Positions 8,476 to 63,330 of a DNA stretch of 64,000 bases are shown one piece after another. This DNA is from Escallonia rubra (Eukaryota; Streptophyta; Magnoliopsida; Escalloniales; Escalloniaceae). The translations under genes were made by a program, and so were the position numbers. The number at the start of each line of letters is the position of its first letter. The stretch's first letter is position 1. The stretch spans positions 122,903 to 186,902 of the forward strand of contig JAVXUO010001954.1 in assembly GCA_033065855.1 (NCBI GenBank), read 5' to 3'. The notes under the pieces are model-generated. The model saw only the letters and a list, made by a program, of their open reading frames with translations. It did not search any database and had not been told where the DNA came from.

Positions 8476-8604
8476 TATTACGTACAAGGACAAATGATAT
8501 TATTATTAGCAATACAAGTAGAAAACTCAATTGAGATTGCTACAAGTTCAAGGTCCTTATAGGTAGCTTTCATCTTCTCTTTTTTTCAATAGATGCATCC
8601 ATCA

Positions 8605-38650: not shown

Positions 38651-39035
38651 TAAATATATAGTAGACGAAACATTGTGCGTTACGGAGGTGACACATAAGC
38701 TTTTTTTAGTGTTTTTTTTTTTTACCTTTTTACCTTTTTAAAATTTATGACACGTCATCGCCTTTTACTTTTGCGACACGTCATCCTGTTTGTTTTGATA
38801 TCACATTCATTTTTTATTTCACTTATTAGAGATACATATGCGCCATGACTCTTTGTTTTGATATCACATTCATTTCTCACTTTTACTTATTAGTGACGCA
38901 CATGTACCATGACTCTTTACTACAATTTACTATTAAAAAATTCGCAGGTATTATTGACATAATTTTGCTAACATTTATAAGAGTAGAAAACTAATTATGC
39001 ATCTTCTAAAACTATACCTATTCAATATACTTACA
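38651..39035 (+). mobile_element. Truncated Helitron, type A copy 2 (head only)
   Basis: It begins like the other units (AAATATATAGTAGACGAAAC) and matches the first ~370 bp of type A copy 3 closely, including TTTTGATATCACATTC. It stops at CAATATACTTACA, where type B copy 2 begins. In the other type A copies that point continues TATAAGGTCT. Confidence 0.65.
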
Positions 39036-42000
39036 TGTCATATCATATCATATAAATATATAATAGACGAAGCGTTGTGCATTATGGGGGCGATACATAA
39101 GCTTTTTTTAGTATTTTTTTTACCTTTTTTATCCCTTTTAGTTATGCGACACATCATCTTTTATCAATTTCGCGACACGTCATTCTCTTTGTTTTAGCGT
39201 TTCACTCCCCTTTTAACTCTACTTATTAATATCTCACATGCATCATGACTCTTTATTATGACTTATTATTAAAAAATTTAGAGGTATTATTACTATATAT
39301 TTAGTTAATCTTATAAGAGTAAAAAATCAACTCTACACATTCTAAAACTCTACCTGATCAATATATCAACATGTTAGGACTTAATTTTGACTATTAACAC
39401 CTAAAAAAACTTTAAATAACAAAATAAACACTCAAACATAAAGAAAACATAAATTACATGTCATCATGTTTAGTTTAGTGTTTTTTCTCCTTTACCTCTA
39501 CTTATTAAAGTCACACATGTATCATGACTCTTTAGTATTATTTATTATTAAAAATTCGAAATTATTATTATCATAAATTTAGTAGATCTTATAAGAGGAA
39601 AAAATCTCTTCTACACCTTCTAAAAACTCTACTTCATCAATAAATCAACATATTAGGACTTGATTTAGACTATTAACACCTCAAAAATACTTTTTAACAA
39701 AATAAATACTCAAACATAAAGAAAACATAAATTACACGTCATCAAATTTACTTTGGTATTCCATTCATCTTCTACCTCTACCTTAGTATAGTCACACATA
39801 CATCATGCCCTTTATTGTAACTTATTATTGAAAAATTCGGAAGTATAATTACCTTAAATTTAGTTGACCATATAAGAGTAAAAAAGCAGTTCTATACCTT
39901 CTAAAACTCTACATAGTCAGTGTATCAACATATTGGAACTTGATTTTGACTAGTAGCACCTCAAAAACACTTTAAATAACAACATAAACACTCAAACATA
40001 TAGAAAACATAAGTCATTTATGAAAAAAAAAAAATTAGGCCACAAATTAAAAGCTTTCTTTTCTTTATACAAAAGCAACATGTAAAAAGAATATGAGTTA
40101 ATTGTTGTAAATAATTTAAAAATACCAATATGAGATTTTACTTCATCAGTTAATTCTTAAAACACATAAGCTTTTCTAAGTGTTTTTTTTTTCTTATTTA
40201 CCCATCTTACTTATGCGTCACATCATCTTATTTGTTTTAATGTCCCCTTTTTTTTTACACAACTTATTAACTCTTTACTAAAATTTATTATTAAAGTATT
40301 TGTGAATATTATTGCCCCAATTGTTGTAAACCTTTTGAAACTAGAAAAAAAATTCTAAAATTTTAATTATATAACATTGAACTTTCAAATACATTAGGGT
40401 TTTTAGTGTTTTTTTTTCCTCTTTACCTCTCTTACTTATGCGACACGTCATCCTATTTATTTTGGTCATTTTCTTTTTCACCTCAATTTATTAACTATGT
40501 ATTATAATCTATTGTTAAAACAATTACGGAATTTTCGTAAATCTTTTAAAACTAGGAAACTAACTCTAAAGTTTTTAAAACACTACCTAATGAGTATACT
40601 CACATATTAGGCCTTAATTTTGACTGTTAATACCTTAAGTGCCCTTTAAAATAACAAAATAGAATCTCACAAATATAAAATATGAAGACCATGTATAAAA
40701 AATAAAGATTAATACTTAACATCTTTTTGTATAAGCAATATACAAAACGAATACGACTTTATTTTTTTTATATATATCTTTGGAATGCCAAAATAGCAGT
40801 TTATTTCATAAATTAAATTTAATATAGTAACTCAAAGTCTAAAGTAGAAATCATATACTATTTTGAATGCCCTAAACAAAGAATCAAATATAACGCATTT
40901 TAAATTTATTACTTTAGTAAGTCTTCAAAAACATATCAAAACGGCATATCTAAAAATTGTAGAACATGATCTTGAAGTGAAACAATTAAACACAGGGATT
41001 TTTACCGTAATGTTACGCTATTTCTTTTATAGGGTGAATTCTATTTTTTAAAGTGGTGGTTACCCAATAAATTGTGGACCATTACCCAGGTCATAGGAAG
41101 ATACATACAACCTCCCATACAGTGAAATTCTATGGTCGTTGTATACTTTTTGTGGCACGTATTTAGTGACTTAAAAGCTGCTTTTAAAATTGTCAGTTAT
41201 AGTGTCAACCAAAATGACACTAAGCATATTTATCGATCATTAACTGTTTTGTATAGAGGGTTGTAGGGATTTTCATGGGCGGTAGGTAAAAATAATTCAT
41301 TATCTAAAATAAATTAAAATTACTCCATTTGCTTCCATTTAACTTCCAATGTGTATTTTTAGTTGCTTATTTATGTCTACACAGTAAATTACTAATTGTA
41401 TAGTTCATGCACCTTTTTTAGGATTTTTCTTTTTCAATACAAATGATTGCGCCAGATTTTTAATTTATTATGTATTAATTCATGTGTATTTATAGGTTAA
41501 TCTACAAAAAATAATGTTAATTATGTTATATTCTAATTTGAGAGACTTCTATAATCACCTTAATATACTATAAGCTTAGAACTTAATGAGCATCTACAAA
41601 TCAAAGATGAAGTATAAGAATTTTGTAACCTTATGCAATTACATTCCCATCTACCATAGTTTAGACAAATGTATGAATATTCACCGCCATATAATCGTTT
41701 AGCCTCAAACATAAAAAAAAAAAAAAGGTTTTGTAAAATGATATGGCATTTTTATGATCATTCATACAATAATTAAATGTACAATGCACACGAATTTTCA
41801 AATTAATTGTCTTAAAAAATGTTCAAAATTAAATGGATGGTGGAAAAAGCATCGAACATTACCATGAAGTAAAGCAATTAAAATACAAATATTGCCACTA
41901 TAACACAATAGTTTCTCTTTTCAGGATTATTTTTACATTTTAAAAGGTTGGTTGTCTGAAATGAAGTAAAATAGCTCCACTTACTTCCATTTTTGCTCTA

Positions 42001-42728
42001 AGGTTTTCATGACATGTTTTTAGTAGATTTATTGAGTTTTAGCAATAATTTACTAAAAAAATTGTTTAAGCCTTTTTTGTACTTTTTTTTTCTAAACTTT
42101 AAATTTCATTGTGGAGGACTGTATTAGATGTCTAATTTAATATATTGTAAGGAGTTCTATCAGATGTTCTTATAAAATAAAACCGTTGATCAATGATGCA
42201 CCACATATCATGGAAAACTAAAAAAGGTCTCACACTTAAATGGATATGGTAAGCAAAATTAATAGCGTAAATATAATTTTGTGTATAAATTCTTGAATTT
42301 AACTTTTTCGAACAAAAACAAAATTAGTAACTAAAATACTAAAAAATTTAAAGTAACATTCTAAATTCATGTGAAAAAATTGATTATTCATTGTATGCTT
42401 CACTTTTTGTAGATTTTGTATTGAACTTCTGAATTTTACTAATATTAAAACACTATAGCATGCTTTATTATTATGAAATAATTTCGAGATTATGCGCTCA
42501 TTGAATTCCTCTTGATTATGATACATCTTATATGTGAAATGCATGAACGCGATATGTTTTGAATTCGATGGTTCACTTCAGACAAATACGAATAAATCGT
42601 TATTTTCAAAACCATTGACATGATGCTTAAATACCCAAGTTTAACTCTACCAAAAAATGTTAAAATTCAACCATACTCATAGCGTTTAAATAGAACTCAC
42701 CCGGACCTTGCCCGAGTTACTGAACTAG
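39036..42728 (+). mobile_element. Non-autonomous Helitron, type B copy 2
   Basis: It starts in (G)TCATATCATATCATATAAAT, close to the TCTATATCATATC head of type A copy 1, then AATAGACGAAGCGTTGTGC. The 3' end carries CCCGGACCTTGCCCGAGT, then TACTGAACTAG and T. Paralogous to type B copy 1. No protein is encoded. Confidence 0.7.
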
Positions 42729-45530
42729 TAAATATATATATTAAATGAAGCATTGTGTATTGCAAATGTGACACATAAGCTTTTTGTAGTGTTCTTTTAC
42801 CTTTTTACCCTTTTTAATTTTACGACACGTCATTGCCTTTTATTTATGCGACACGTCATCCTGTTTGTTTTGATATCATATTCCTTTTTCACTTCTACTT
42901 ATTACAGATACATATGCGCCATGACTCTTTGTTTTGATATCACATTCCTTTCTCACTTCTACTTATTAGAGACGCGCATGTACCATGACTCTTTACTACA
43001 ATTTATTATTAAAAAATTCGCAAGTATTATTGACATAATTTTGCTAACCTTTATAAGAGTAGAAAACTAATTATGCATCTTCTAAAACTCTACCTAGTCA
43101 ATATACTTACATATAAGGTCTCAATTTTCACTACTAACACCTCAAAAATACTTTAAAAACTTCTACTTATTAAATTTACTCATACATCATGACTCATTAT
43201 TATTAAAAAATTTCACATGTATTATTGGCATAATTTCACTAAACTTTATAAGAGTAGAAAATCGATTATGCATCTTCTAAAACTCTACATATTCAATATA
43301 TTAACTTATAAGGTCTTAATTATCACTACTAACATCCCAAATTTACTTTAAAACCCTCTACTTATTAAAGTCACACATGCATCATGACTCATACTGTAAT
43401 TTATTATTAAAAAATTTGCAGGTATCATTGGCATAATTTCAGTAAGCTTTGTAAGAGTAGAAAATCAATTTGCACCTTCTTGAACTCTACATAATCATTA
43501 TACTAACATATAAGATCTTAATTTTCACTACTAACACCTCAAAAGTACTTTAAAAATCTCTTCTTATTAAGGTCACAAATGCTTGATGACTATTTACTAT
43601 TATTTTTCACTACTACCATCTAAAAAATGCTTTAAAACATCTATTTATTAAAGTCACGCACGCATCATGACTCCTTATTGTAATTTATTATTAAAAAATT
43701 TGTAGGTATTATCGGTATAATTTTACTAAACTTTATAAAGAAAACCAATTCTGCTCCTTCTACCTATTTAATATACTAACATATAAGGTTTTAATATTCA
43801 CTACTAATACATCAAAAGTACTCTAAAAACCTCTACTTACTAAAGTCACACATGGATCATGACTCTTCATTATAATTTACTATTGAAAATTCCCGGGTAT
43901 TATTGGCATAATTTTGCTAAACTTTATAAGAATAAAATTATTTTTGCACCTTTTAAGACTATACCTATTCAATATATCATATAAGGTTTTAACTTTCACT
44001 ACTAACACCTCAAAAAGTACTTTTAAAATAAATAGAAATCTCAAAAATATAAAATACAAAAATCATGTATGAAATCAAAGATAAATAATTTAAAATCAAT
44101 ATATTTTGAATATAATTTACAAAGTGATATTACTTAATTTTTAAAACTATTTTACATTTTTTTATATTTTTTAGTGTTTCTTTTGTTATCATAAAGTTTC
44201 TTTGAGGTGTTAATACTCAATATTAAGTCATAATATGTTGCCACATTGATTAGGTAGAATTTTATAAGGTGTAGAATTGGTTCTGTACTCATATAAGGTA
44301 AACTAAAATTATGGCAACAATAGCTACGATTTTTTAATAATAAATCAAAGTAAAAAATCACGGTGCATGTATAATTTTGATAAACACGGATAAGAAAGAA
44401 AAAGGACTCGAAAACAAAAAATGATGATGTGTCGCAAAATTAACCTCAAATTCTAAATTGGGAATCATATACACCAAATTATGTATGAAATCAAAGATAA
44501 ATAATTCACAAATTAAGATCTTTCAAAATTAGTTTACAAAGTCATATGACGTAATTTTTAAAATATTTTATGTTTTTTTCCTTCATATTTTCAGTCTTTA
44601 TTTTGTTATCTTAAAGTGTTTTTGAGGTATTAATAGTTGAACTCAAGTCCTAATATGTTGATACATTGATTAGATAGAGTTTTAGAAGGTGTAGAATTGA
44701 TTTTTTTTACTCATATAAGGTAAACTACAATTATGACAACAATAACTACGAATGTTTTTAATAATAAATCAAATAAATAATCATGAATCATATGTTGATA
44801 AATATGGATAAAAAAAAGAAAAGGACTCGAAAATATACATGATGATGTATCACAAAATTGACCTTAAATTTTAATAGGAAATCATATTTGTATATGACTT
44901 ACAAATAAAGATCTTTCATTTCTATTTACGAAATTAATATACAAAGTGAATATGACTTAAATTTTAAAAATATTTTGAAACATCAACATGTAATTTACTT
45001 AAGAAATTAATTTTAATTGTGTGACATCACTTCTAAATTGGGAATAACATACACCAATAAATGCGAAATATAAAAGAATCAAATTGAATATGATTTAACT
45101 ATTAAAATACAGAAATAACAGTTTAATTTCATAAATAATTTTTGAGATTACTGAATTAGAAATAAACAAAAATGAATATTCATGGCGTTACTTACGCAAC
45201 ATGTCATCTCTTCTAATTATGCAACACAATATCTTATTTGTTTTCATATCTATTTTCTTTTTTACCCTAACTTATTAACACTTTAATATGGTTTATTATT
45301 AAAAAAATGTAGGTCTAATTTGCCCAAGTTTTGTATACCTTCTAAAACTAGAAAACTAGCTAATGTTACACCTTCTAAAACTCTACATAATCTATATACG
45401 CATATACTAGGCCTTAATTTTAACTTTTAACACTTTAAAAAATATTTCAAAATAACAAAATAAAATAATACTAAAATCATCCCCTGCTTATTAATTCTTT
45501 ATTACGATTTATTATTGAAAACTTTGTGGT
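42729..45530 (+). mobile_element. Non-autonomous Helitron, type A copy 3 (3' end missing)
   Basis: The head (AAATATATATATTAAATGAAGC) and the module series parallel type A copy 1, with direct modules to about 44,030 and inverted ones from about 44,170 to 44,840. No CTAG terminus is seen. The unit gives way near 45,530 to retrotransposon-like DNA of different composition, so it is probably truncated there. Confidence 0.55.
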
Positions 45531-48091: not shown

Positions 48092-48096
48092 ACTTC
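48092..48096. repeat. Target-site duplication ACTTC, left copy
   Basis: It immediately precedes the TGTTGGTGC start of the left LTR. An identical ACTTC follows the right LTR. Five base pairs is the length expected for Ty3/gypsy integrases. Confidence 0.9.
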
Positions 48097-48437
48097 TGTT
48101 GGTGCGAAAAGATGGGTCATTTGCCACGTCGAGGTGCCACAAAGGATGCAGTCTGAGTTGGCTTCCAAGTAGGCAAAGTGGGAGACAGCAAGGATGGCGT
48201 AAGGGCTGAGAGCAAGGCTCCTCAGGCAGGTTGCAAGGGCTGGCAGTGCCGCGTAGACAAGGTGACGACGAACAGGCCCGGCGGTCGACAGTCTGTGTCA
48301 AGGGTGCAACGTCGAGAGTTCGAAGTCGTAAGTTCAAATGTCTTTCTCTCACTAGAAATCCAGAGAGAATGGGTTTTAGAGAGAGAAATTGAAAATGTCA
48401 AATAAGGCAGAAGTCTTGAATAAGCTCCAGAATCCAA

Positions 48438-48445
48438 TATAAATA
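48438..48445 (-). promoter_or_regulatory. TATA box of the 3' LTR
   Basis: The plus strand reads TATAAATA within CCAATATAAATAGGCAC. On the element's strand this is TATTTATA, at the position matching CTATATATAG in the other LTR. Transcription would run leftward. Confidence 0.5.
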
Positions 48446-48929
48446 GGCACAAATATGCGCTTGTCATCAGCCAACACGTGTCGTCCTCCGGGAGTGACAC
48501 GTCGCCATAGGGGGTCCCGCAGTCTTGATTGTCCGTCAAATTTCCGGTCCCCGAGTTCGTGTCGTCCTGCCCTTGCAGCGTCCCTCTACCTGTCTGAGGA
48601 GACTGACCACACTACAGTAGCATGGTCAGAGTAGCCCGTTGCCCCAGCCTCCAGTCCAAGCCCTTACTGAATCCCACGAGATGTGTCATGAGACGCGCTG
48701 AGATCCTGGCAGCGGTGAGGGTTGCCCCTGCAGCCAACTGCTAGGCGTGCCGGGCACGATGCCCTCCGAGGACCTGCTCCCGTCCCGGAGTGACTCGCGG
48801 TTCATTGCCCTGGTGGTGTCGATGATCAATGGTAACATGAGTGTACATGCTCGCAACTTGATATCCAGAGTCTGTGGCGAAGGGTCCTCGTGCAGGGGCA
48901 TTGCGAATGGAGCCCCCCCATGAGTCTGT

Positions 48930-49215
48930 CGGGTGATTGTGCCGGCGGTGGCCTTAGGGCTGTGAGTCCAACCCCCGTTGCGAAGACCGGAGCCTGAGCC
49001 CCCGGTTGATTGTGCCGGCGAGGGCTTTAGGGTTGTGAGCCCATCCCGCCGTGAGGGCCGGAGCCCCCGGTGGATTGTGCGGGCGAGGGCCGGAGCCCCC
49101 GGTTGATTGTACCGGCAAGGGCTTTAGGGTTGTGAGCCCGTCCCGCCGCGAGGGCCGGAGCCCCGGTTGATTGTGCGGGCGAGGGCCGGAGCCCCCGGTT
49201 GATTGTGCGGGAGAT
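48930..49215. repeat. GC-rich ~33/64-bp repeats in the 3' LTR
   Basis: Units built from GGTTGATTGTGCCGGCGAGG, GCTTTAGGGTTGTGAGCCC and GAGGGCCGGAGCCCCC recur four to five times. A shorter series occurs at about 62,420-62,680 in the 5' LTR. Confidence 0.75.
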
Positions 49216-49301
49216 AATAGGCGTCACGCGACCACTACGGATGAGTGAGCATTGCTGAATACGCTGAGTGAGGTGATAGCAGCGGTAAGCAGGTCCCCCC
49301 C

Positions 49302-49835
49302 CCAAGGACATGGGAGGTCGACCCCCTTCTCCGGGGGGTGGCCTACCCCCTCACAAAAGGGATGGCCGACCCCCTCACAAGGTGGGTGGTCGACCCCCTC
49401 ACAAAAGGGGTGGCCGACCCCCTCACAAAGTGGGTGGCCGACCCCGTTCTCAGGGGAGTGGCCGACCCCCTTCTCAGGGGAGTGGCTGACCCTCTTACAA
49501 GGTGGTTGGCCGACCCCTTCTCAGGGGAGTGGCCGACCCCCTTACAAGGTGGTTGGCCGACCCCCTTCTCAGGAGGGTGGCTGACCCCCTTACAAGGTGG
49601 TTGGCCGACCCCTTTCTCAGGGGAGTGGCCGACCCCCTTACAAGGTGGTTGGCCGACCCCCTTCTCAGGGGGGTGGCCGACCCCCTTCTCAGGGGAGTGG
49701 CCGACCCCCTTACAAGGTGGTTGGCCGACCCCCTTCTCAGGGGGGTGGCCGACCCCCTTCTCAGGGGGGTGGCCAACCCCCTTACAAGGTGGTTGGCCGA
49801 CCCCCTTCTCAGGGGTGTGGCCGACCCCTTGGGGG
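49302..49835. repeat. GGCCGACCC tandem array in the 3' LTR
   Basis: About 19 units of ~27 bp alternate between GTGGCCGACCCCCTTCTCAG and GTTGGCCGACCCCCTTACAA forms. Long frames on both strands here (GWPTPFSG and GVGHPPEK types) arise from the repeat and are not genes. Confidence 0.85.
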
Positions 49836-50082
49836 GGAGGTACCTTCGATCGCTGTCTGAATGTTTTTAAGGCGAGGGGCGCTTTGATCGAGCATGGCGA
49901 TGTTTGAGTATCAGAGCGTTTTGACTGAGGAATGATGTTGAGCAAATTTGACTATCGAGCGGGTGACGTGTCGTGCCACTAGAGTCTTTTAGCGGGCCCT
50001 GGGGTGCGGTCCGCGGGTGACATGTCGTGCCATTGGAGTCTTTTAGTGGGCCCTGGGGTGCGGTCCGGATAGGTTGTGAACA

Positions 50083-50100
50083 TAAGCCCCCTGTGTGTGG
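50083..50100 (-). other. Polypurine tract region of the Tat element
   Basis: On the element's strand CACACACAGGGGGCTTA directly precedes the LTR start TGTTCACAACC. A purine-rich stretch at this place primes plus-strand DNA synthesis in LTR retrotransposons. Confidence 0.6.
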
Positions 50101-50288
50101 GGTGCGCGGAGGGCAACCCGAGCGGGCATCGCACGCATAAACGATGTTGAATGCGCTTGGGGAGCAAAACATTAACGTTGTGAATATGCGTAAGTAGCGG
50201 GAAAGGAGAGCGGTAAAAAAATAAAAAAAATAAAAAAATTTGTTGAGAATTGAACAAAAGGGGTGGTTGAGATTGGATGGCCCACTTC

Positions 50289-50296
50289 TATAAATA
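50289..50296 (+). promoter_or_regulatory. TATA box of the antisense PMD gene
   Basis: A perfect TATAAATA lies 76 bp before the first ATG (50,372) and about 200 bp inside the element from the 3' LTR. The intervening leader is purine-rich without upstream ATGs. This suggests that the captured gene has its own promoter, independent of the LTR. Confidence 0.6.
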
Positions 50297-50371
50297 GGGA
50301 AGGGGGTGGAGGGTGGTTTGCTAAAAAAAATCAATTCCATATTTTGAGAAGTTGAGAGAGAAGAGAGAGAC

Positions 50372-53300
50372 ATGGTAAGAGAGGGAAAGCAAATGGCCGA
50401 GGGGTCGGCCGCAGATGGGGGTCGGCGTGGTCAAGAGGTCGGCGGGGGTTGAGAGAAGGAAAGAAGAGGGGAAGGGGGAGGAGGGAAGAAAAAGGGGAAA
50501 AAGGAGGGGGGTCGGCCACACAAGGGGGGTCGGCGGGGGCAGGGGGGTCGGCCACCCAGGGGGGGTCGGCCAATACGGGGGAGAGGAGAGAATGGAGGGA
50601 AGAAAGGGATGAGAGGGGAGGGGGGTCGGCCACGCGAGGGGGGTCGGCCGGAAGAGGAGGGTCGGCGGGAAAAGCTGCCTCGGGGGGAGTAGGGAGAGAA
50701 GGTAGAAGAGAATAAAAGGGGTCGGCGGGGCCGAAATGGTCGGGAGCGGGAGGTGGGTCAGTGGGGCCGAAGGTTTCGGGAGCTGGAGGGAGGTCGGCGG
50801 GGGAAGAGGGGTCGGGAGCTGGGGGGAGGTCGGCGGGGGCAGGGGGGTCGGGAGCTGGAGGGGGGTCGGCGGGGCCAAGAGCCGGTTTTAAGGTCACGCC
50901 CGCCGAGCCGGTGCCCGTTCTGAAAAAGTTAAAGCAGCAGATGTGGGTGAAACCACGAGGTAGGGCGGCGAGAGCAGCGCGGCCACCGCAAAATGTGATG
51001 ACGGAACCGGTGCCGCCCCCGCCGATAGATGAAGCTGAAGCTGCGGGAGGTGGTGAGACGGGAGTGCCATTTTCATTTGATGATGCGTTGGTGAGGACGT
51101 ATGATTCGGACCCGGATAAGACGACCACGCCGTTGAGAGTAAAAGTGGTAGTACCAGCCATGCCTGACCGGGAGTTGTGGAGGGAGCTGGCCATCCGGGT
51201 AGCAGATGGTTCGTTCACAGTGCCTTGGAGTGGTGCGTCGATGAGGGAGGAGCCACGAGTGCCGTCACCATATGTGCGGGCTCTGAGCTGGGATGATGCG
51301 CCCGTGCCGTCACCGAGGTATGTGGCGGGGTTGTTGGTGGAGCGTGAGGATATACCCTGGGCACCTGTGGTGTTCAAGGGTCATGGTGCGATGCCGATTG
51401 GGTGGGACTTCTGGTGTGAGCACATGATGGAGGTGCCGAGGTGGTCGGCATTATTGCAGGCGTTGGGGTTGGTGCCGGCGATTGATATTACGGCGAGGGG
51501 GGTGGAGTTGTACAGAGACACGCCTGGGATGACTTTGTTGTTGTCGCGGTGGAATACTCAGACACATACCTTTGTGACTGAGTTCGGAGAGATTGGGCCG
51601 ACGCTGATGGATGTGATGATGTTGACGGGGCTGCCGATGCATGGAGAGTTGGATGCACGTGTGACGCGGCTGACTGGTGAGGAGCAGTTGTTGCAGACGC
51701 AGCTACTTGATATTTTGGCGGAGACGAGGCAGCATCGGAAGGTGACATATAGCGGGTGGCTCCGATTGTTTTATGGCACGCCGCAGGTGAGGTTGGGGCA
51801 GAAATTGGGCAATGCTGCCCATTTCGTGATGAGGCCGTATTACAAGGACGAGCGGTACGAGATGGTGGCCTTTTTGACGATGTACTTGTCGAGGTAAGTA
51901 TGATGCGTTCCGTTGTTTGTATGCTTGTAGATGTGACGCGAGTTGAGGTTGTATATAATGCGTTGGCGTGTTGTTCTGTTTTGCAGATTCGTGTTTGAAG
52001 GGACGCCGGAGGACGGCATTTCCGCGAAGGTGATTCCCTTGACGATTCAGATGGCGTAGGGGAAGCGTGTTTGGCTAGCTTCTGTGTATCTGGGCACCAT
52101 GTATTCACGGTTGGATCAGTTCGTGAACGACGTGAATAGGTCGCACGTGCGGTACCAAGTGGCGACCTACGTGGATTGGATGTTTCTGCAGCGGTACTTG
52201 TATGAGTGTTTTCCAGACTATCGTCCGACAGGATATCCGGTTGAGTATCCAGCACCGAGGACGAGGACAGTGATGCACGGTGGTAGATCGCGGGAAGTGG
52301 CACTGTGGTGCGGCGGGTCGCGGGCATTTGCATGGTCGGGCATTTACATGGGCGGGCATCAAGAGGCCGGAGTGCCCGTGTCACGGTTAATAGATGCGAG
52401 GGAGGCATGCATAGCACGGTCGTATAGAGAGATGCATGCGTCATACGGAGTACCCCCCTGGTTGCACGGACATGAGATGACGATAGATTTGACCAAGAAG
52501 GGGGGTTTGCCACTGGCGGACGTTGTGCTCTTGGTGGCCTACTTTCCAGGTTGGCTGCCAGTGATGACTGATGATGGCGAGAAGCCTGTAGAGAATCTAT
52601 ATTACGTGGCTCGGTATTGCCCAGACAGGTTGTCGCGGACATTTGGCTATGACTTGGAGCCGCCGTGTGGTTATCGTAGCCCGTGGAGTGTGACGACCGC
52701 ATTGGGTACACGCGGTATGACAGAGTCTGTGAGTGGCTGGTACCGGTGGTAGCATGGAGGAGGCCGGGGATAACGTCAGTGGGGGCGGTGACGGTAGAGT
52801 ATGCACAGTGGTGGGAGCGTCTGCGGGCGGTCTGGGCAGAGTGGTTGGCACACCCATCGGGGACACGACGACTGGTTGACGTGTTTGCCTGTGACCGGGC
52901 GTTGAGCTTGGTATTGATGACCGCGGCGAGGCAGGCTGGCATGCTGGTGTTAGTGACGGGGAGTGCGGTTGTGAGTTCAGAGAGGGATCCCGATGAGGAG
53001 GGCGAGGAGTCTGAGGAGGATGCCCCAGAGGAGGACCATGGGGAGGAGCCAGTGGTGGCGGTACCGCGGGTGCCAGGGGCCGGCAAGGGGCCGCTGTCGG
53101 CATTGCGAGTTTGGATGATGGAGGGGGCTCGTCAGGCGAGTGCGGGCATTCAGACTTGCGGCTGACAGGATCGAAGAGGCCGCGAGATGCATCGGAGGAG
53201 CCAGTGGTTGAGGTAGGCCGGACTGTGGCCGCTTTTGATTAAATCTTGTTTATTGATGTCATTTAATGAAAAAAAAAGTTGATATGCTAACGGTTGTTTT

Positions 53301-54459
53301 GGACAGGGGTACGAGGGACAAGCGGTGGAGAGCGGCAGTGATGCAAATGTGGCGGTCGAGACGGGGGAGACGAGAGTAGCCGAGGTTGATGAGCCAGCAG
53401 GCAGAGATGAACCGGTAGTGGCTGGCGTGTCGGGGGCCAGGGCGAGCGGCAGGGTGAGTCCACTACCCAATGTCGAGGAGGGGTGGATGATGTGTATGGT
53501 GGCTTGGTCGACGAGTCGTTGATGTTTGATGCCAGTGGCTACAGGTGGACAGGCGCGGCGACGGAGGCCGCGGTGGTTGAGTGGGGAGATTCGATAGAGT
53601 TGGAGCCTGCAGTGGCGGTCCCGATTCAGGAGGTGGAGATCCCGGTGCAGCCGGTGCAGGCTGTTGTGGTGGCGCCGTCAGGGTTGGCTGTTGAGGCGAG
53701 TGCGATGTTGATGGCGATGCACTCGATGACCGTCGGTGTACAGGCAGTCGGAGAAGTACGTGAGAGGCCTGTGATGGTGTTGAGTGGCACAGCAGCTGGG
53801 GAGGCGAGTAGAGGATCGTCGAGTGGCCAGGCCGACGTGGTAGTATGGGAGAACCTCCAGCTACCTTTGGAGACAGTGCGTCGGTTAGAGATGGTGAAGG
53901 CGGCGTATCCGTAGACGTTTGAGGGGGTGAATTTGGAGAATCCGGTGCTGCGGAGATGGGTGTACTCAGGGTTTGTGGAGTGGCTGCTGCCGATTGCGAG
54001 TGTTCCCGCGGCGGGTTGGACGACAGGGTTTATTGAGCGGTCGCTGACAGAGTTCGCGGCGTTTACCTCTTTAGGTGTGCAGCTAGATTGGTTGGCTGAG
54101 TTCTTTAGGTCGAGGAACGAGGGTGGTGGTGTGGGCGAGAGGATGGCCTTGGTACGTATGGAGGAGATGCTGCTCGAGAGGCGCTGCCAAGGGTTGGAGG
54201 TGGAACGATCAGAAATCAACGGAGAGTTGGTCGTGATCGACAGAGAGGTGGCGGAGAGAGAGAGAGGCAGCTGTCGGACTTGCAGAGACGTCTAAGTGAT
54301 CTCTAGAGGCGGCGGACGGATGTGGAAGTGCGAGAGGCTGAGCGTTTGAGGCGGCAGGCTGAGTTCAAGGCGGAGCGGTCGGCGCTACATGTTCAGCGTC
54401 AGACATTGCAGGCGTTTAGCGCTCACCCAGTAGCAGCTTTGTTATCTAGCTTCCGGTAG
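50372..54459 (+). pseudogene. Plant mobile domain (PMD, MAIN-like) gene captured in antisense, recently broken
   Basis: The PMD core lies in the long first exon: WSALLQALGLVPAIDI, LLLSRWNTQTHTFVTEFGEI, then MDVMMLTGLPMHGE, the conserved landmark of the family (MAIN, MAIL1 and transposon relatives, implicated in silencing and genome stability). Exon 2 continues with KRVWLASVYLGTMYSRLDQF, NLYYVARYCPDRLSRTFGYD and, in another frame, ITSVGAVTVEYAQWWERL. Two GT-AG introns (51,894-51,986 and 53,213-53,306) keep frame. The N-terminal part is a Gly-Ser-Ala-rich repeat. The C-terminal part is acidic, then coiled coil (MEEMLLERRCQGLEVERSEI; AERLRRQAEFKAERSAL). Breaks: a shift near 50,450, TAA 50,713, TAG 52,057, a shift near 52,690, a shift near 53,490, TAG 53,912, a shift near 54,265 and TAG near 54,300. 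Few lesions over 4 kb imply recent decay. Confidence 0.85.
50400..50880 (+). repeat. GGGGTCGGC-rich repeats in the 5' part of the PMD gene
   Basis: Words like GGGGGGTCGGCCACCCAGG, GGGGTCGGCGGGGGCAG and GGTCGGGAGCTGGAGG recur every 20-35 bp. They encode Gly-Gly-Ser-Ala-type repeats. The core word is the reverse complement of the LTR array word GGTGGCCGACCCCC. Confidence 0.75.
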
Positions 54460-54909
54460 GTTTATCATAGATTTGATGTCTAGGGAGTGCCCGATAGTGG
54501 CCAAAGACGTTTTATGTATGTATAAACATCTATTTTGTTGGTACATGAAGTGTAATTGCATGCTGCTTTGTTAATACCTGTCGTGGATGTATGGTATAAG
54601 CGTTGTATGTTACGATTGTGTGTTGCGTCTGTTGGATGTCTGTCTGTGTCCCCCCCCCCCCCTTTTTCCTTTTTCGCTTTTTTTTTGGTAATCGACGACA
54701 AACACTTGATAACTAGAAATGAATATAAAAGTAGAGGCAAAGCATAGAGGTATGGAATGAAAAGACCGTATATTGATAGTGCGTGGATCAAAGAAATGTC
54801 TTTACACAAAAGGAACTCGTAACAAGAAACAAAAGTACAAACTAGTACATGTGTGTATATACACAAAATGCTGGGTCGGGGGGGGGGGGGGGGACAAGCC
54901 GCAAGCTGA
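54460..54909. other. Tail-to-tail junction between the PMD gene and the integrase end
   Basis: This is non-coding DNA between two convergent stop codons. It holds a C run (about 54,650-54,662) and a G run (about 54,878-54,892). Transcripts from either side must terminate here or overlap as antisense RNA. Confidence 0.5.
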
Positions 54910-56399
54910 TCATGCATAGTACTTCTTCAGATAGCGACCATTGAAAGGGGCGGTAAGTTGCCCGTCGTCTGGATTGAGCAAGAGGTACGAGTCATTGCTC
55001 CTGGCAGTATGTATTTCGAATGGCCCCTTCCAGCTAGGTGTAAACTTAGGAGCTGACAAATAGGCCCGTACGTGCTTGGCGGCTTGGAGGACAAGGTCAC
55101 CCGCTGCGAAGGAGCGAGGTTTAACGGTCTTCCCGTAGGCTTTGAAAAGCTTCTCATGATATGCCTTCATTCGTCGCATGGCATTAGCTATCTTTTCATC
55201 GAGGCTCTCAAGTGCCACCATTCTGGTTTCCTCCTCTCCGAGACCACTGCTGAGGAATAGACGCGCCGAGGCGACTGCGATCTCGGCAGGCACTACACAT
55301 TCATCCCCGTAGACGAGGGAGAAGGGTGTGGCCTTCATAGCTGTGTGTCTGGAAGTTTTGTAGGCCCAGAGGGCATGACTTAGCCTTTCGGACCAAGAGT
55401 TACTCGCGTCATGGACCATGCGTGACAAAACGCGCAACAGAGTTTTGTTAAAGGCTTCAGCCTGACCGTTGCCTTGCGGATAAGAAGGAGTCGACGTGGC
55501 ATGATTGATATCGTCTGCTTCCATGAGAGTCCGAACATCCCGATTGATAAATGGCGTGCCGTTATCGGAGATAATACATCGGGGGATGCCGAAGCGACAT
55601 ATGATGTGGTCGCGCAAAAAGTTGGCGATGGCGCCCCCCGTGACTTTTCGCAGAGGTATGGCTTCGACCCACTTTGTGAAACGCTCCGTTGCGACCATGA
55701 TCCAAATGTGACCTTTCGATGGTGGATGTATGGGCCGATAAGGTCGAGAGCCCAAGAGTGGAATGGCCAAGGGGCCGCGATCATACAAAGGTCGGATGCT
55801 GGCATGTACATTCTATCTGCGTGTCTCTGGCAGGGTTGACAGTGTCGTACATGGGAGATTGCATCGGACTCCATAGTCGGCCAATAGTACCCCAACCTGA
55901 GTAGTTCTGCATACAATATCTGAGAGCCTTGATGTTCGCCACAAGCACCATTGTGCATTTCGTTGATCACCTCGACTACTTGGGCACCCTGCAAGCATCG
56001 TAGGGTGCGTCCCGAAAATCCCTTGCGAAACAATTCGCCTTCCGTCTCGAAGTACTTGACCGACTTGCGCTTGATAGATCGTGCCGAGCTGTGGTCAGAG
56101 GGTAGCAGTCTGTGGGACATATATTGTAGGAAAGGCTGGTGCCAGTCACCCTCAACATTGACGACAAGAGCTTCCGTACGGTCTGGTGCATATAGGCATT
56201 CCGAGCAACCCTGCTGCACATCTGAAGCATCCTTGGCCATAGATGGCCAAAAGAGACCCATTCGCTGGAGACGACGGTATAATGGCGGTCCGTCGAGGCC
56301 GTAACACTTTTGATGTCCATACTGCAATTTGTGCTTTGCTTCTGCCGGGGCCAAACATCGTGCCAGAGTGCCTCCGGGACATCGCTTGTATAGGATGTC
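54910..56399 (-). pseudogene. Tat integrase, one stop and one frameshift
   Basis: It continues the RT/RNase H frame after a TGA at 56,400-56,402. A first zinc-binding-like module (QYGHQKCYGL...QQGCSEC, about 56,320-56,195) lacks the second His. A second, complete module follows (EMHNGACGEHQ...HCQPCQ, about 55,960-55,830). The catalytic core has its first Asp in ALDLIGP (about 55,745), then a one-base frameshift near 55,738. The second Asp is in IISDNGTPF and the Glu in GQAEAFNK, with 35 residues between them, a correct DD35E spacing. The C-terminal part has KPRSFAAGDLVLQ and KGPFEI and ends LKKYYA. The intact enzyme would insert element cDNA and produce the 5-bp duplication. Confidence 0.9.
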
Positions 56400-58571
56400 T
56401 CATAACATAAAGAATTCTGTAAGAGTGGAGACGAAAGTGAGTGATGGTGCTCTAAGCTGGTCGACGATCGGCTGCCTCCAATCATCGGTTGTCATGTCCG
56501 TTGGTACCAAGTCCAACGTCGTGCATGGTGCCGTCCTTTTGATAATGGTTAGCACACGCTGTTCACCGTCAATGTCTATTTTTGACGCGATCGTGGCTAA
56601 GCTGTCCGCATGTCGGTTGTGGCTCCTGCTGTGATGTTCGTATTGGACATGGCCAAGCTGTCCCTCCAAGTGTTGTACTAAGGCACGATAAGGTGACAAG
56701 GTTGGCTCCCTGACTGCAAACTCCCCATCGGCCTGCTTCATGATTAGGTTCGAGTCCCCCTTTACACGCAATGATTTAGCCCCCATGCTGATGGCTAACA
56801 TGAGGCCGATGACGAGGGCCTCGTACTCGGCTTCATTGTTAGATACCAGGAATACGAGTTTGAAGGATAGGGATGTGGTAACACCTTCTGGGTTCCGAAG
56901 GACAATGCCGGCACCTCCTTGCCGGATGGGAACTCCCTTGGGGTCTTTGCTAGTGGCTGAGCTGTCGAACTCAAGTGTCCACAATTTATCAACATCAGAG
57001 GTCAGGGCCGTCTCTTCTCCAGGCAATTGATGTGAGGTTGGTTCATATTGTTGACGTGGGAAGAAGGCCAAGAGGTCTGTGAGTGCTTGGCTTCGCAAAG
57101 CCGTAGGATTCTTGATGGATAGGCCGAATTCGGCCAGTAGCAGTAACCAACGAGTAAGTCGGCTAGACAGGGTGGGGCGAGTGAGCATGTATCGTAATGG
57201 GTCAGCCTTGGTGACGAGTGTAATCTGGTGAGACAAGAAGTAGTGTCTGAATTTCTGCGAGGCGTAGACTAAGGCGAAGCAATGTTTTTTGAGCTCAGAA
57301 TAATTGGCCTCGGGTCCTCTAATTAACCGACTGAGATAATAAACCGGACGTTCCACTCCGTCCACGTCTTGAGTAAGTAACGCCCCTATAGATCTGGGCG
57401 TGGAGGTTAGGTAAAGCAAGAGTGGTAGGCCTCGTTGCGGCACGACCATGGTTTGTGGTGACATGAGGACCGCCTTGATCTGTTCAAATGCTTGTTGTTG
57501 GGGCGCACCCCAATCCCATGGCGCGGTCTTGCGTGTTAAGTGCTGGAAGGGCGTGATAAGCTCGGCCAAGGCAGGGATGAACCTGCGGAGATAAGAAACC
57601 TTGCCAAGGAAACTTTTTAACTGCTTGGTGCTCTTGGGTGGTGGCATCTCTCGAATAGAGGCTGCCTTGGAAGGGTCAACGTCGATACCCTGTCGACTGA
57701 CTAAGAAGCCAAGGAATTTACCGGAGGAGACTCCAAAGGCACATTTGAGCGGGTTCATCCGCATGTTGTATTGACGACATCGGTCAAAAACTGCCCGAAG
57801 GTCCGCAAGATGCTCACTTTCCTTTTTAGATTTGATAATGAGGTCGTCAACATAGTCTTCCACTGTGCGGTGTATCATGTCGTGAAAGATAGCTGTCATA
57901 GCTCTCTGATAGGTGGTACCTGCATTCTTGAGACCAAAAGGCATGACCTTCCAACAAAAGTTACCCATCGGGGTCCGAAAAGCTGTCTTGGCACAGTCAT
58001 CTGGGTTCATTCGAATTTGGTTGTAGCCGGCGAAGCCGTCCATGAAGGACAAGGTCTCGTGTCCGGCGGCAGCCTCCGTGAGCATATCAATATTGGGCAG
58101 TGGAAATTCATCTTTAGGGCATGCCTTATTCAAATCGCGGAAGTCAATACAAACGCGAACTTGTCCATTCTTCTTTTGCACAGGAACAACATTGGCCAAC
58201 CAGATAGGATGAGTGATGGGTTCGATGAAGCCAGCCTGCAGAAGTCGTTCGATCTCTTGCTTGATTTTTATTTCAAGTTCGGGGCGGAAGGACCGCGAAT
58301 GTTGTCGAACTGGGCTGAACCCGTTGGCAATGTTGAGATGGTGCGTTACTAAGGCAGGGTCTAATCCGGGCATTTCGTTATAACTCCATGCCAACACGTC
58401 GCGATATTCACGGAGGAGGGTAACTAGTCCCTCTCTTCGGCCTGGGGTGAGTTTCGTGCCAATGTAGGTCAGTCGAGGTTCCTCGCCCGGATCAGTTGAG
58501 GTTTCTTCAAGATCTTCGGCCTGCTGTCGTGGGCCGTCTTCATAGCAGGGGGTGCAGCGCCCGGGGTAAGC
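56400..58571 (-). pseudogene. Tat reverse transcriptase, RNase H and archaeal-type RNase H
   Basis: A 2.17-kb open stretch is complete except for its linkage to the neighbours. RT motifs are RVCIDFRDLN, FMDGFAGYNQI, MPFGLKNAG and the catalytic YVDD (57,854-57,843). The connection/RNase H region follows (LSRLIRGPEANYSELKKHC). It is degenerate where the family has its first Asp (LLLYLTSTPRSIGALL). A second, archaeal-type RNase H then has FDSS, NEAEYEAL, GDSNLI and SHNRHADSLA, keeping the acidic residues. The latter would supply the active ribonuclease, as known for Tat elements. The frame opens after a TGA at 58,572, without an ATG, and ends with FFML then TGA, where relatives continue into integrase. 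Confidence 0.92.
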
Positions 58572-58708
58572 TCATGATCTGGCGGACAATGCTCGGCCAT
58601 ACAACACCATTCTGTCTCCGTATGTGGGTGGTGGTCAAGGCGGTCGGGCAGCGGACCCCCCGGACACCGTCATAACTGGTAGATGACCCTTTCGTCCTTG
58701 ATGACGCG
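58572..58708 (-). other. Broken linker between protease and reverse transcriptase
   Basis: Protease, an intermediate 78-codon frame (58,776-58,540) and the RT region lie in three different frames. At least two indels have occurred within this short stretch. No domain is encoded here. Confidence 0.5.
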
Positions 58709-59745
58709 CTAGAAGGTGGTTTCAAACTTGTGCTTTTTGGCCTTGGGAGATGAAGGCGGGGAAATGGTAGGGGCATCAGATGGTGCTGTTAAGGTTGATG
58801 CTTTGTTCTTGTTGCTTTTCTTGGACTTGGACTTGGATTTGGGTGGCTTGTTCCCACACAGCTCGTCCCAATCCAGTAGTTTGGTGGAGTGGATATGAGT
58901 GGCATTCTCATTATCTGCAGCAAGTTCAGTGAAGAAGGAGGCCTCGGCAAAATAAGACTCGGTACACTCAAAAGGGGCCTTGCTTGCGGGGATGGTTACT
59001 GCTACCTCATGTCCCGCAGGACCGGCCACCAGTTTCACACACTGGTGGTACGTTGAGGGAACAGCCTTATTGATATGGATCCAAGGTCGCCCGAGTAGGA
59101 GGTGGAAGGAAGACTCGCTATCTATCACATGGAAAGTGGTGTCACGACGGACACTTCCGACCATTAGGTCGATAGTGATGTGGCCAAGAGTGGACTGGGG
59201 GCCCTGCCCAAAGCTAATGATTTGGATGGGGTCCCGAATGATCTTTCTTGGCGGTATACCGGCCTGCTGCAAAGTGATGAGAGGGATGATGTTGATTGAG
59301 GCGCCGCAATCTACCAAGGCGCGGTGAAAGCCGGTGCCGTTGACAGTGCATTCAAGGTACAGTGGCCGGTTATGGTGCTCGACGGTTGGTGAGTCCTCGT
59401 GCGAAAATATAAATGCAGTGGAAGGGACATATCTGAGCTCAGCCTGGGCGGTGAAGTACTCGGGCCCGAGGCCTGTGGTGACCTCGATCAAGCAATCCGA
59501 GAGATAGGTCAGCGCTGCGGGTGAAAACCCCATTTCATCAAAGAAGCCTTTGATCTTCGTCATTTGGCTAGCCGAGGACACTGGCTGGAGGGTAGGAGGT
59601 ACGTGAGCTGTGATCAAAGGCGAGACTTCCGCAGAAGCTTCGGGGGCGAGCGGCTCGAAATGGTCGGTGGTAACCATGAGCACCTGATGCTCGCGGTTGT
59701 TGTTGCCATGGTTTGGGTATGGTTCTTTCCGCACATCATTGTTCT
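58709..59745 (-). pseudogene. Tat aspartic protease region
   Basis: The frame continues the gag frame after two stops (TAG and TGA two codons apart). The protease active site is VDCGASINIIPLITL, the plant gypsy version of D(S/T)G. It is followed by the flap-side sequence GHITIDLMVG and the closing ILLGRPWIH-type motif (here LLLGRPWIHINKAVPSTYHQ). The C terminus is Lys/Ser-rich (KSKSKKSNKNK). It would cleave the Gag-Pol polyprotein. No ATG is found near the start, which fits expression as a fusion with gag. Confidence 0.85.
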
Positions 59746-59752
59746 TTCACAG

Positions 59753-61318
59753 CTATAGCTCGCCTGACGCGACCTTTCTTGCAAAGATGGCCCGCAACGC
59801 ATTGTAGTTCTTGAGAGGATGGCCGAGGGCCTGGTGGAAGGGACAGTAGTTGGGCCTGGTTCTTTCCTCGTCCATGATGGGGATCCGCACAGGTGGTAAA
59901 TGGAAGTTGTCTTCGTTGACAACCCATTCTGTCAATAGATCTTTCACCGTATTTAAATCACACGGAAAGGCAGGCGGAGTCTCCTGTTGTCGACGTTTGT
60001 CGGGTTGTTGGTCCCTATTCGGGAACTGGCGTTTAAAGCCAGTGTAATTATTGATGTTGCTGTTGCCGATGCTGGTGCTGCCGCGCTGGGTACTGGGTGG
60101 GGCTGCTGAGGCCACCAGTGCATTCTGTGGCCGAGGCCTCCATGGTTTGACAGGCCTGACCGTTTCGTAAGTACGCCTCACTGTTTCTTTGAGATGTCCC
60201 CATGATTTCAATTGTAAGTTCTCGAGGTGCACCCGGTATACGTCGTTCATATTCTTTATGCATATGGGCACCAGTGTCTCATCCTTACTGAAATCTGTAC
60301 AGTCGAGGCATTTAAGATGAAAGCGATGCACATATTTAGTCAAGTCTTCGCCGGGGGCCTGGCGAATGCCGGCGATGTCCACTATGGTGACGCGCTCAGC
60401 TTCATAGTGGAATTTTTCCATGAAGAGTTGGACCATTTCATGCCATGAATGGACTGTCCCCGCAGGGATTTGATGGTACCAAGTATAGGCCAAGCCCGTG
60501 AGGGACTTGTGAAACTCCTTCAATTTCAAACTATCGCCCGGTCCATATTGCTCCAATGAGCCGGCGAATCTGGTTAAATGCTCACGGGCATTGCCTTCAC
60601 GCTCGTTAAAGAGCACGAAAGTGGGTTGCTTGTACTTGAGCGGATAGGGAACGATGGTTATCTCGTCAGCATACGGCGCGTGGCCTATCAATCGACTTGA
60701 TGAGTCGGGTGCGGAATGCTGTGACAGCCGGTGAAGAAGCGCGTCAAAGTCAGCCTTTGAAACATAGTGGGAGGGCGGCTCCTCCTGGCCGACCAAAGGT
60801 CGGTGGCCGGCCGGCGCTCCGCGAGCCCCGGAGTCCCCTGACGGTACAACTTGGTGGGCAGGAGCGGTTGAAGGCCGATACATGGCGGGTGTTGATACGG
60901 GCAGGTGGAGGGTGGCATGGGTGGGCGGACGAGACATATCCACCACTTGTCCTGTCATTTGGTGCTGCTCCATCAAGTAGGGGTTAGACTCCATCTCAAT
61001 GGACTCGTGAGTCTCAGAAGAGCTCCTGGCTGGAGCATGTTGAGGCGCAACAGTAGGGGAGACTTGTTACAATAATGGCCCAAGATCCGGCTGCTGTCTG
61101 CGTGGCGGCATCACGGGACGCAGCATGTCAGCTACGGGCGGGGAATATGTCGTGAGTCCTATTGTCAGGGGTCTGGAGGGTTGAGGCGGTGGTGGTCGTG
61201 ACACTGGCGCCTGGGTAGCATCAGGGGACGGCCCAGGTCCTTCAGGCTGGACCGGCAGCACAATCTGTTGCGAGGCCATCGCTTGTATGGATTTTTGCAT
61301 TTCCAATATGGTGGCCAT
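59753..61318 (-). pseudogene. Tat Gag, one in-frame stop
   Basis: The first in-frame ATG after the primer site is at 61,318 (MATILEMQKSIQAMASQQ). A TAA at 61,067-61,069 interrupts an otherwise open frame that then continues ~440 codons. The Retrotrans_gag region is clear: FNEREGNAREHLTRFAGSLE, FHKSLTGLAYTWYHQIPAGT, then SWHEMVQLFMEKFHYE. Near the C terminus a zinc-knuckle-like YCPFHQALGHPLKNYN has lost its last Cys. Gag would form the particle that packages element RNA. The TAG at the end is followed by CTG TGA and then the protease in the same frame. Confidence 0.88.
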
Positions 61319-61565
61319 GAGTGAAGCTTGAGAGTCCTGTATGTTGGCTATGGTGGGGGTGAACTGTTGGATAGCCGCGTTGACTGCCACTTGCACGTCA
61401 GGTGTGGGAGGGTCTTGGTGGCGTACAACGCTAGTCTCCTCTTGGTCGTCAGAGTGATGCTCCTCACGGATGGTGGGGTTGAGGCCTTGGCTGGTTGCCC
61501 TGGTAGCTTTCCGTTGTACAGGTATGGTTGCTAAGGTGCGGCAGACTGCAACACAATGCTCACCT
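61319..61565 (-). other. 5' leader of the Tat element
   Basis: This is the leader between primer site and gag ATG. It is open in the gag frame (TVQRKATRATSQG-like), so translation might start upstream at a non-ATG codon, or the true ATG may be lost. Packaging signals would lie here. Confidence 0.4.
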
Positions 61566-61582
61566 CCCCAACGGAGTCGCCA
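61566..61582 (-). other. Primer-binding site of the Tat element
   Basis: On the element's strand TGGCGACTCCGTTGGGG follows the LTR end after two bases. This is a common Tat-type primer-site sequence. I do not assign the tRNA with certainty. Confidence 0.7.
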
Positions 61583-61924
61583 AATGTTGGTGCTGAAAGA
61601 TGGGTCCTTTGCCACGTCGAGGTGCCACAAATGATGCAGTCTGAGTTGGCTTCCAAGTAGGCAAAGTGGGAGACAACAAGGATGGCGTAAGGGCTGAGAG
61701 CAAGGCTCCTCAGGCAGGTCGCGAGGGCTGGCAGTGCCGCGCAGGCAGGGTGACGACGAACAGGGCCGGTGGTCGACAGTCTGTGTCAAGAGTGCAACGT
61801 CGAGAGTTTGAAGTCGTAAGTTCAAATGTCTTTCTCTCACTAGAAATCCAGAGAGAATGGGTTTTAGAGAGAGAAAGTGAAAATGTCAAATGAGGCAGAA
61901 GTCTTGAATAAGCTCCAAAATCCA

Positions 61925-61934
61925 CTATATATAG
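61925..61934 (-). promoter_or_regulatory. TATA box of the 5' LTR
   Basis: CTATATATAG (palindromic) lies in the LTR about 340 bp from the primer site. Start of genomic RNA is inferred near 61,900, giving a short R-U5. Confidence 0.5.
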
Positions 61935-62764
61935 GCATAATTATGCGCGTGTCATCAGCCGACACGTGTCGTCCTCCGGGAGTGACACGTCGCCATAGGG
62001 GGTCCCGCAGTCTTGATTGTCCGTCGAATTACCGGTCCCCGAGTTCGTGTCGTCCTGCCCTTGCAGCGTCCCTCTGCCTATCTGAGGAGACTGACCACAC
62101 TGCAGTAGCATGGTCAGAGTAGCCCGTTGCCCCAGCCTCCAGTCCAAGCCCTTACTAAATCCCACGAGATGCGTCATGAGACGCGCCGAGATCCTCGCAG
62201 CGGTGAGGGTTGCCCCTGCAGCCAATTGCTAGGCGTGCTGGGCACGATGCCCTCCGAGGACCTGCTCCCGTCCCGGAGTGACTCGCGGTTCATTGCCCTG
62301 GTGGTGTCGATGATCAATGGTAACATGAGTGCACATGCTCACAACTTGATATCCAGAGTCTGTGGCGAAGGGTCCTCATGCCGGGGCATTGCGAAAGGAG
62401 CCCCCCCATGAGTCTGTCGGGTGATTGTGTCGGCGGTGGCCTTAGGGCTGTGAGTCCAACCCCCGTTGCGAAGACCGGAGCCTGACCCCCCGGTTGATTG
62501 TGCCGGCGAGGGCTTTAGGGTTGTGAGCTCGTCCCGCCGCGAGGGCCGGAGCCCTGGTTGATTGTGCGAGCGAGGGCCGGAGCCCCCCCCCCCCCGGTTG
62601 ATTGTGCCGGGGAAGGCTTTAGGGTTGTGAGCCCGTCCCGCCGCGAGGGCCGGAGCCCCAGTTGATTGTGTGGGGGATAATGGGCGTCACGCGACCACTA
62701 GTGATGAGTGAGCATTGCTGAATGCGCTGAGTGAGGTGATAGCAGCGGTAAGCAGGTCCCCCAA

Positions 62765-63078
62765 GGACAAGGGAGGCCGACCCCCTTCTCCGGGGGGTGG
62801 CCGACCCCCTCACGAAAGGGGTGGCCGACCCCCTCATAAGGTGGGTGGCCGACCCCCTCACAAAAGGGGTGGCCGACCCCCTTACAAAGTGGGTGGCCGA
62901 CCCCTTAAAAGGTGGCGGGCCGACCCCCTTCTCAGGGGAGTGGCCGACCCCCTTCTCAGGGGCGTGGCCGACCCCCTTACAAGGTGGTTGGCCGACCCCC
63001 TTCTCAGGGGGGTGGCCGACCCCCTTCTCAAAGTGGGTGGCCGACCCCTTCTCAGGGGTGTGGCCGACCCCTTGGGGG
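62765..63078. repeat. GGCCGACCC tandem array in the 5' LTR
   Basis: About 11 units of ~27 bp of the same family as at 49,302-49,835. Frames running through it on both strands are repeat artefacts. Confidence 0.85.
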
Positions 63079-63325
63079 GGAGGTACCTTCGATCGCTGTC
63101 TGAATGTTTTTAAGGCGAAGGGCGCTTTGATCGAGCATGGCGATGTTTGAGTATCGGAACGTTTTGACCGAGGAATGATGTTGAGCAAATTTGACTATCG
63201 AGCGGGTGACATGTCGTGCCACTGGAGTCTTTTAGCGGGCCCTGGGGTGCGGTCCGCGGGTGACATGTCATGCCACCGGAGACTTTTAGCGGGCCCTGGG
63301 GTACGGTCCGGATAGGTTGTGAACA

Positions 63326-63330
63326 ACTTC
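63326..63330. repeat. Target-site duplication ACTTC, right copy
   Basis: It directly follows the GTGAACA end of the right LTR and is identical to 48,092-48,096. Confidence 0.9.

Follow-up and report, generated by a model that had tools for sequence, protein, structure and literature searches.

A conserved antisense plant mobile domain gene with two predicted introns in Tat/Ogre-like retrotransposons of Escallonia rubra

Ogre-clade Ty3/gypsy retrotransposons with open reading frames (ORFs) for the plant mobile domain (PMD) were reportedly described by Steinbauerova et al. in 2011. A PMD is present in an extra ORF in 57% of Ogre elements (PMC6317226), and the clades PMD-A1 and PMD-A2 consist of PMDs encoded only by Gypsy elements, across angiosperms (PMC5418596). 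Antisense ORFs downstream of pol have already been described in Retand, Grande (gene23) and RIRE2 (PMC7264820, PMC11963269), together with a call for the study of antisense and spliced transcripts (PMC7264820). The PMD proteins described in the texts consulted take part in the regulation of host genes and the silencing of transposons (PMC5418596, PMC7156037). The idea that elements use PMD proteins against silencing has been printed (PMC8616336; PMC5418596 for Mutator-like elements, MULEs), and the direction of PMD exchange, from host to element or the reverse, is left undecided (PMC5418596). Here we analyse a stretch of 64,000 nucleotides from Escallonia rubra (the window; contig JAVXUO010001954.1, positions 122,903 to 186,902), which contains a Tat/Ogre-like long terminal repeat (LTR) retrotransposon on the minus strand and, within it, a PMD gene on the plus strand.

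The PMD (PF10536) gene is antisense to the element and lies between the integrase and the 3' LTR, a position proposed in a preliminary description of the window and borne out by the Pfam matches and the LTRs. Sequence comparisons indicate that the gene keeps this place and orientation in several families of the element, that it is under purifying selection and that its two predicted introns stand at the same sites. Its parts in the window copy are as follows.

50289-50296, plus strand: TATAAATA, putative core promoter of the antisense gene (from sequence and sibling conservation)
50401-50900, plus strand: leader or N-terminal region with 14 GGTCGGC motifs, the motif being reversed in the LTR arrays
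50761-51893, plus strand: exon 1, open part, PMD profile positions 8-119
51894-51986, plus strand: intron 1, 93 nt, GT-AG (GTAAGT...TTGCAG)
51987-53212, plus strand: exon 2, with PMD profile positions 120-194 at its start; stop and frame breaks in this copy
53213-53306, plus strand: intron 2, 94 nt, GT-AG
53307-54459, plus strand: exon 3, C-terminal part, heptad-like helix in relatives; stops and frame breaks in this copy

Exon 1 alone matches PF10536 with 54.7 bits (E=1.2e-14, profile positions 8-119), and exon 2 alone, with X at its stop, with 25.1 bits (positions 120-194), under the curated cut-off of 34.9 bits, which both exon 1 and the joined exons pass. Exons 1 and 2 joined score 99.2 bits versus 83.8 bits unspliced. 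Since the two matches abut at intron 1 and joining them raises the score, the domain continues across the intron. Only profile positions 8-193 of 347 are matched by the joined exons. No Pfam match (E up to 1) was found for exon 2 from 52060 on or for the first C-terminal pieces, a search of solved structures yielded nothing related to exon 1, and three pattern matches in viral contigs yielded none confirmed. Support for the label 'MAIN-like', given to the gene in the preliminary description, extends no further than the shared PF10536 domain.

Relatives were sought in the same genome only (566 Mb, 3222 contigs). A DNA search with exon 1, in which 40 of 436 candidates were scored, returned copies all at least 92% identical, the window included, and 29 sibling loci (L002-L030) were aligned with the window. 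All 29 carry the PMD gene with the GT and AG of intron 1 present. The GT-AG of intron 2 is readable in 27 of them, L022 being unaligned there and L023 cut. The tested part of exon 1 is free of stops and indels in 8 of the 30 copies (window included).

Linkage to the element was assessed from a protein search with the integrase, scoring the best 150 of 5586 candidates, against which several PMD lists were set (150 PMD matches, a further 141 with L081 as query, 3 exon 1 copies and 13 places with the donor pattern). An opposite-strand PMD match was present on the 3' side within 10 kb of 112 of these best 150 integrase matches, at a median distance of 3792 bp (range 2910-9089; three above 4500), and one additional pair, L080, recognised by sequence, raises the number to 113. 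For 8 others the expected PMD place falls beyond the contig edge. One of the 112 has an extra same-strand PMD match 8.9 kb away on its other side, perhaps belonging to another element. The three loci fetched beside integrase matches (L080, L081 and L082) all carry the gene. An aORF-3R, that is, an antisense ORF between pol and the 3' LTR in most copies, is therefore what we observe in 29/29 siblings and beside 113 of the best 150 integrase matches. The PMD evolves faster than the integrase, with 73-74% versus 88-89% identity in seven copies (C1002, C1003, C2132, C2664, C1920, C949 and C298).

Selection on the PMD protein was estimated at two levels. Between families, the window and 7 of 29 siblings, chosen for an open exon 1, were compared with 13 of 15 far loci. 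The median ratio of non-synonymous to synonymous substitution rates (dN/dS) between the window family and six other copy sets was 0.12-0.26 for exon 1 and 0.14-0.18 for exon 2; two wrong frames of exon 1 gave medians of 0.72-1.21 and 1.41-2.40. Within the family, variants were counted in the window and 28 siblings over exon 1 and two stretches of exon 2. Silent and non-silent variants numbered 190 and 391 among singletons versus 92 and 93 among variants present in at least three copies (Fisher p=4e-5), whereas two wrong plus-strand frames of exon 1, tested likewise, gave p=0.59 and 0.20. The corresponding ratio for polymorphisms (pN/pS) in the PMD frame was 0.59 for singletons, 0.34 for variants in at least three copies and 0.21 for those in at least five. 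A neutral passenger was rejected at the level of the lineage by the shared-variant test and the between-family dN/dS. The expectation that siblings would share the gene under selection has thus held, and neither of the contrary outcomes named beforehand, a lone insertion among siblings lacking the gene or dN/dS near 1, was found.

The introns behave differently from the exons. Nine far copies (L065-L072 and L074) are 73.8-77.5% identical to the window in exon 1 and 75.9-78.1% in exon 2, versus 31.9-50.7% in intron 1, which is 84-85 nt long in these copies with GT and AG at the same points. Across the 15 far loci the AG of intron 1 is kept in 15 and the GT in 13. Protein identity between the window and the more distant L081 is 51% and 57% in the PMD exons and 45% beyond them. 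In L081, intron 1 measures 203 nt and is inserted at the same codon, and intron 2 occupies the same GAG|GT...GACAG|G place. The two GT-AG introns of about 93 bp reported earlier, here 93 and 94 nt, are accordingly confirmed as sites kept in siblings and in L081, with intron 1 ranging from 84 to 203 nt across copies. Shared variants per site number 0.295 in intron 2, 0.160 in intron 1 and 0.097 in exon 1. The intron 2 density also exceeds that of the leader and of the measured exon stretches, and intron 2 is 86-111 nt long among the 27 readable siblings.

Spliced retro-copies of the gene were also considered. The spliced exon-exon junction of the window family was found at 0 places in the genome (up to 3 mismatches), a result that is no proof of rarity, versus 102 places for the exon-intron (donor) form, used as control. 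We infer that this is the outcome expected if the introns are spliced only from RNA opposite to the copied strand.

The window copy itself is a decayed pseudogene, a dead member of its family, and is not open through all exons. Its frame is interrupted by three stops (52057-52059, 53912-53914, 54304-54306) and by four or more frame breaks across 51987-54459, the resulting pieces being collinear on L082, and it carries a 16-bp insertion relative to 26 of the 29 siblings. Upstream, the exon 1 frame meets a stop near 50710. The complete transcription unit initially attributed to it has therefore to be given up for this copy.

Upstream of the coding part, the proposed TATA box TATAAATA proved to be conserved, differing in only 3 of 28 siblings (L022 left out). 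Among the 600 overlapping 8-mers starting at 50100-50699, 6 are kept as well as this one, itself included. The PMD leader has 14 plus-strand copies of the motif GGTCGGC, the two LTRs have 16 and 13 copies on the opposite strand, and window positions 1-48000 have none. The motif is present in the leader and the available LTR part in 23 of the 29 siblings and in the leader only in 6. At the other end of the gene, a helix with a heptad pattern is clear in relatives, where the score of the C-terminal part was reached by 0 of 300 shuffles in L082 and 4 of 300 in L081. In the window, the C-terminal piece is cut by a frame break and its score was reached by 46 of 300 shuffles; the two window pieces are 37% and 27% identical to L081. 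The C-terminal coiled coil described for the gene is therefore supported, as a heptad pattern, in L082 and L081 and is not clear in the cut piece of the window.

The element that carries the gene is a single full-length LTR retrotransposon of 15.2 kb, at 48097-63325 on the minus strand, with the following features.

48092-48096, no strand: left target site duplication ACTTC, partner at 63326-63330
48097-50082, minus strand: 3' LTR, 1986 bp, containing a 24-bp tandem array
54913-56354, minus strand: integrase (Pfam match), split in the window copy across two overlapping frames
56400-58397, minus strand: reverse transcriptase, RNase H and additional RNase H (RVT_3) (Pfam match)
58709-59734, minus strand: aspartyl protease ORF (Pfam match)
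59753-60994, minus strand: gag (Pfam match)
61585-63325, minus strand: 5' LTR, 1741 bp
63326-63330, no strand: right target site duplication ACTTC

Both LTRs have the ends TGTT...AACA and the element is flanked by the 5-bp ACTTC duplication, as befits an LTR retrotransposon. RVT_3 covers residues 492-602, after reverse transcriptase and RNase H, and the integrase follows in the next ORFs (Pfam profiles). An additional RNase H between RNase H and integrase marks Ogre and Retand, the Tat clades of angiosperms (PMC6317226), and this domain order assigns the element to that type. The 311 bp between 58397 and 58709 resemble the arrangement of Ogre, which has two polyprotein ORFs separated by a stretch averaging 274 bp, with the ORFs of the window copy being partly broken. 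The LTR pair differs at 58 of 1236 sites (24-bp arrays excluded; Kimura two-parameter distance 0.049), which gives an insertion age of 1.9 or 3.5 million years at assumed rates of 1.3e-8 or 7e-9 changes per site per year. Elsewhere in the window, 31759-44716 contains satellite-like repeats of about 200 bp and a duplication at a spacing of about 4.07 kb, partly inverted.

Other PMD genes were collected by a Pfam search of the genome (112 scored of 5238 candidates). In L062 and L063 a MULE transposase lies on the PMD strand. In L064 such a transposase is on the opposite strand, about 3 kb off, so that the link is unsure, and in L061 none is present among the ORFs tested. The PMD matches of these four loci run through the intron 1 site without a break. 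In a small own-genome tree with long branches, the six Tat PMDs group together (support 1.000), separate from the L061-L064 types. A C48 (Ulp1-type) peptidase match is present in the ORF next to the PMD in L061 and L064. Contig C922 has a tandem cluster of four PMD genes (L031-L034) whose frames are open for 643-689 aa and whose profile matches are full-length and unbroken; in the same tree no other PMDs lie closer to those of Tat elements.

Taken as a whole, these results are best explained if this Tat/Ogre-like lineage has long carried the PMD gene as an accessory gene, passed on vertically, a reading that we consider probable: being common to the siblings and under purifying selection, the gene is not a lone capture. 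It would be transcribed from its own TATA promoter, placed about 200 bp inside from the 3' LTR, and the transcript would be spliced by the host to give a protein with a PMD and a C-terminal helix. The introns would be invisible in the genomic RNA of the element, made from the other strand, and would for that reason survive retrotransposition. As for function, we tentatively suggest that the target of the protein in the nucleus may be the host PMD silencing pathway (MAIN/MAIL1-PP7L), on which it would act in trans to aid the expression of family copies. A bolder proposal, to which we attach little credence, is that the opposite-strand introns work as a strand lock, the protein being made only from a separately initiated, spliced antisense mRNA and never from genomic RNA, and that the protein or a host partner recognises GGTCGGC in the leader and the LTR arrays in an autoregulatory loop with the element promoter.

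Several observations weigh against this account. Twenty-nine of the best 150 integrase matches are unpaired with any listed PMD match, which leaves room for elements that lack it. Because only copies with open frames were taken as far loci (15) and as siblings for the dN/dS comparison (7), the ratio is biased downwards, and dS values of 0.5-1.2 point to partial saturation. A minus-strand frame with its third positions on those of the PMD frame gave pN/pS values of 0.61 for singletons, 0.43 for variants in at least three copies and 0.34 for those in at least five, a similar fall, so the frame test alone cannot separate the two frames. With transversions only, pN/pS for variants in at least three copies is 0.68 in exon 1 (from 19 variants) and, in the two stretches of exon 2, 0.52 (from 8) and 0.84 (from 7), all small counts. 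The GT of intron 1 is lost in two of the 15 far copies (L073 and L077). The whole case is drawn from the sequence of one genome, and the counter-silencing role is one that we infer.

Four alternative explanations were weighed. The antisense gene could serve the element's own replication, through chaperoning, nuclear import or target choice of the integration complex, and not counter-silencing. It accompanies open pol frames in several families and is kept by selection, and the antisense product of maize Grande, gene23, is nuclear (PMC7264820); the host regulatory and silencing activities of described PMD proteins (PMC5418596, PMC7156037) speak against such a role and nothing in the present data favours an integration function, so that we regard it as rather doubtful. 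An antisense RNA might instead be the useful product, regulating the element RNA via double strands and small RNAs, with the frame mattering little. Such an RNA would overlap the 3' part of the genomic RNA, phased small RNAs arise from PMD genes in tea (PMC10673657), and the idea has been raised before (PMC7264820); however, a PMD-frame dN/dS well under 1, and introns that diverge freely where exons do not, make RNA improbable as the sole explanation, even if it may act in addition.

The gaps might also be spacers or indels between frames, or the coding strand might be the minus strand, which has ORFs of 348 aa (50331-51377) and 532 aa (51488-53086) overlapping exons 1 and 2. Splicing is predicted here from genomic sequence, and the minus-strand frame mentioned above mimics the selection signal. 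Nevertheless, the PMD match abuts across the intron 1 gap, GT-AG is kept while the interior diverges, shared variants are densest in intron 2 and sparsest in exon 1 among the three, and a minus-strand frame spanning the gap would be disrupted by its changes in length (84-203 nt). Minus-strand coding was rejected because the 532-aa ORF would need to read through the diverged intron and no Pfam family matches either ORF; we judge the whole alternative very improbable. Least probable of all, with next to no weight left, is a recent capture of a host PMD gene by this one element, or the insertion of such a gene into it. The introns and TATA box are host-like in look, and the preliminary description had proposed that the element carries a host-type transcription unit, but the gene is common to all 29 siblings and to 113 of the best 150 integrase matches, which refutes this, and the Tat PMDs form one clade apart from the MULE PMDs in the small tree.

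On the accessory-gene reading, introns, which usually betray a gene that has not passed through RNA, would here mark one that passed many times on the other strand and retained both introns in place even as protein identity fell to about 50%. The combined signature of exon conservation, splice-site conservation and intron divergence may serve to recognise antisense accessory genes and to infer splicing without RNA data. The locus bears on whether plant PMD silencing proteins arose from elements or the reverse, and the printed counter-silencing idea becomes testable in a genome with at least 100 copies.

Earlier literature already covers PMDs in Ogre, antisense ORFs of Tat elements and the idea of counter-silencing. 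Ogre elements are, like the window element, Tat elements with an additional RNase H and a PMD in an extra ORF; PMD orientation, introns and selection tests are absent from the portions consulted of that account (PMC6317226). The PMD-A1 and PMD-A2 genes are Gypsy-encoded (PMC5418596), as is the window gene, and the words 'intron', 'orientation' and 'opposite' are absent from the text of PMC5418596. In the literature searched on introns and orientation, subscription papers being out of reach, we found conserved introns described for no antisense PMD gene of this kind. The Retand antisense ORF differs in that 97% of Retand clusters encode TRP28, and neither 'PMD' nor 'intron' occurs in the text of that paper (PMC11963269). 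PMD-bearing MULEs are also mobile and present in the same genome (L062 and L063), but they are DNA transposons, show no break of the PMD match at the intron 1 site and belong to another clade. The host MAIN and MAIL1 proteins (PMD-C) share the PMD domain and act in transposon silencing; they are encoded by host genes, unlike the PMD gene described here, which is carried by the element.

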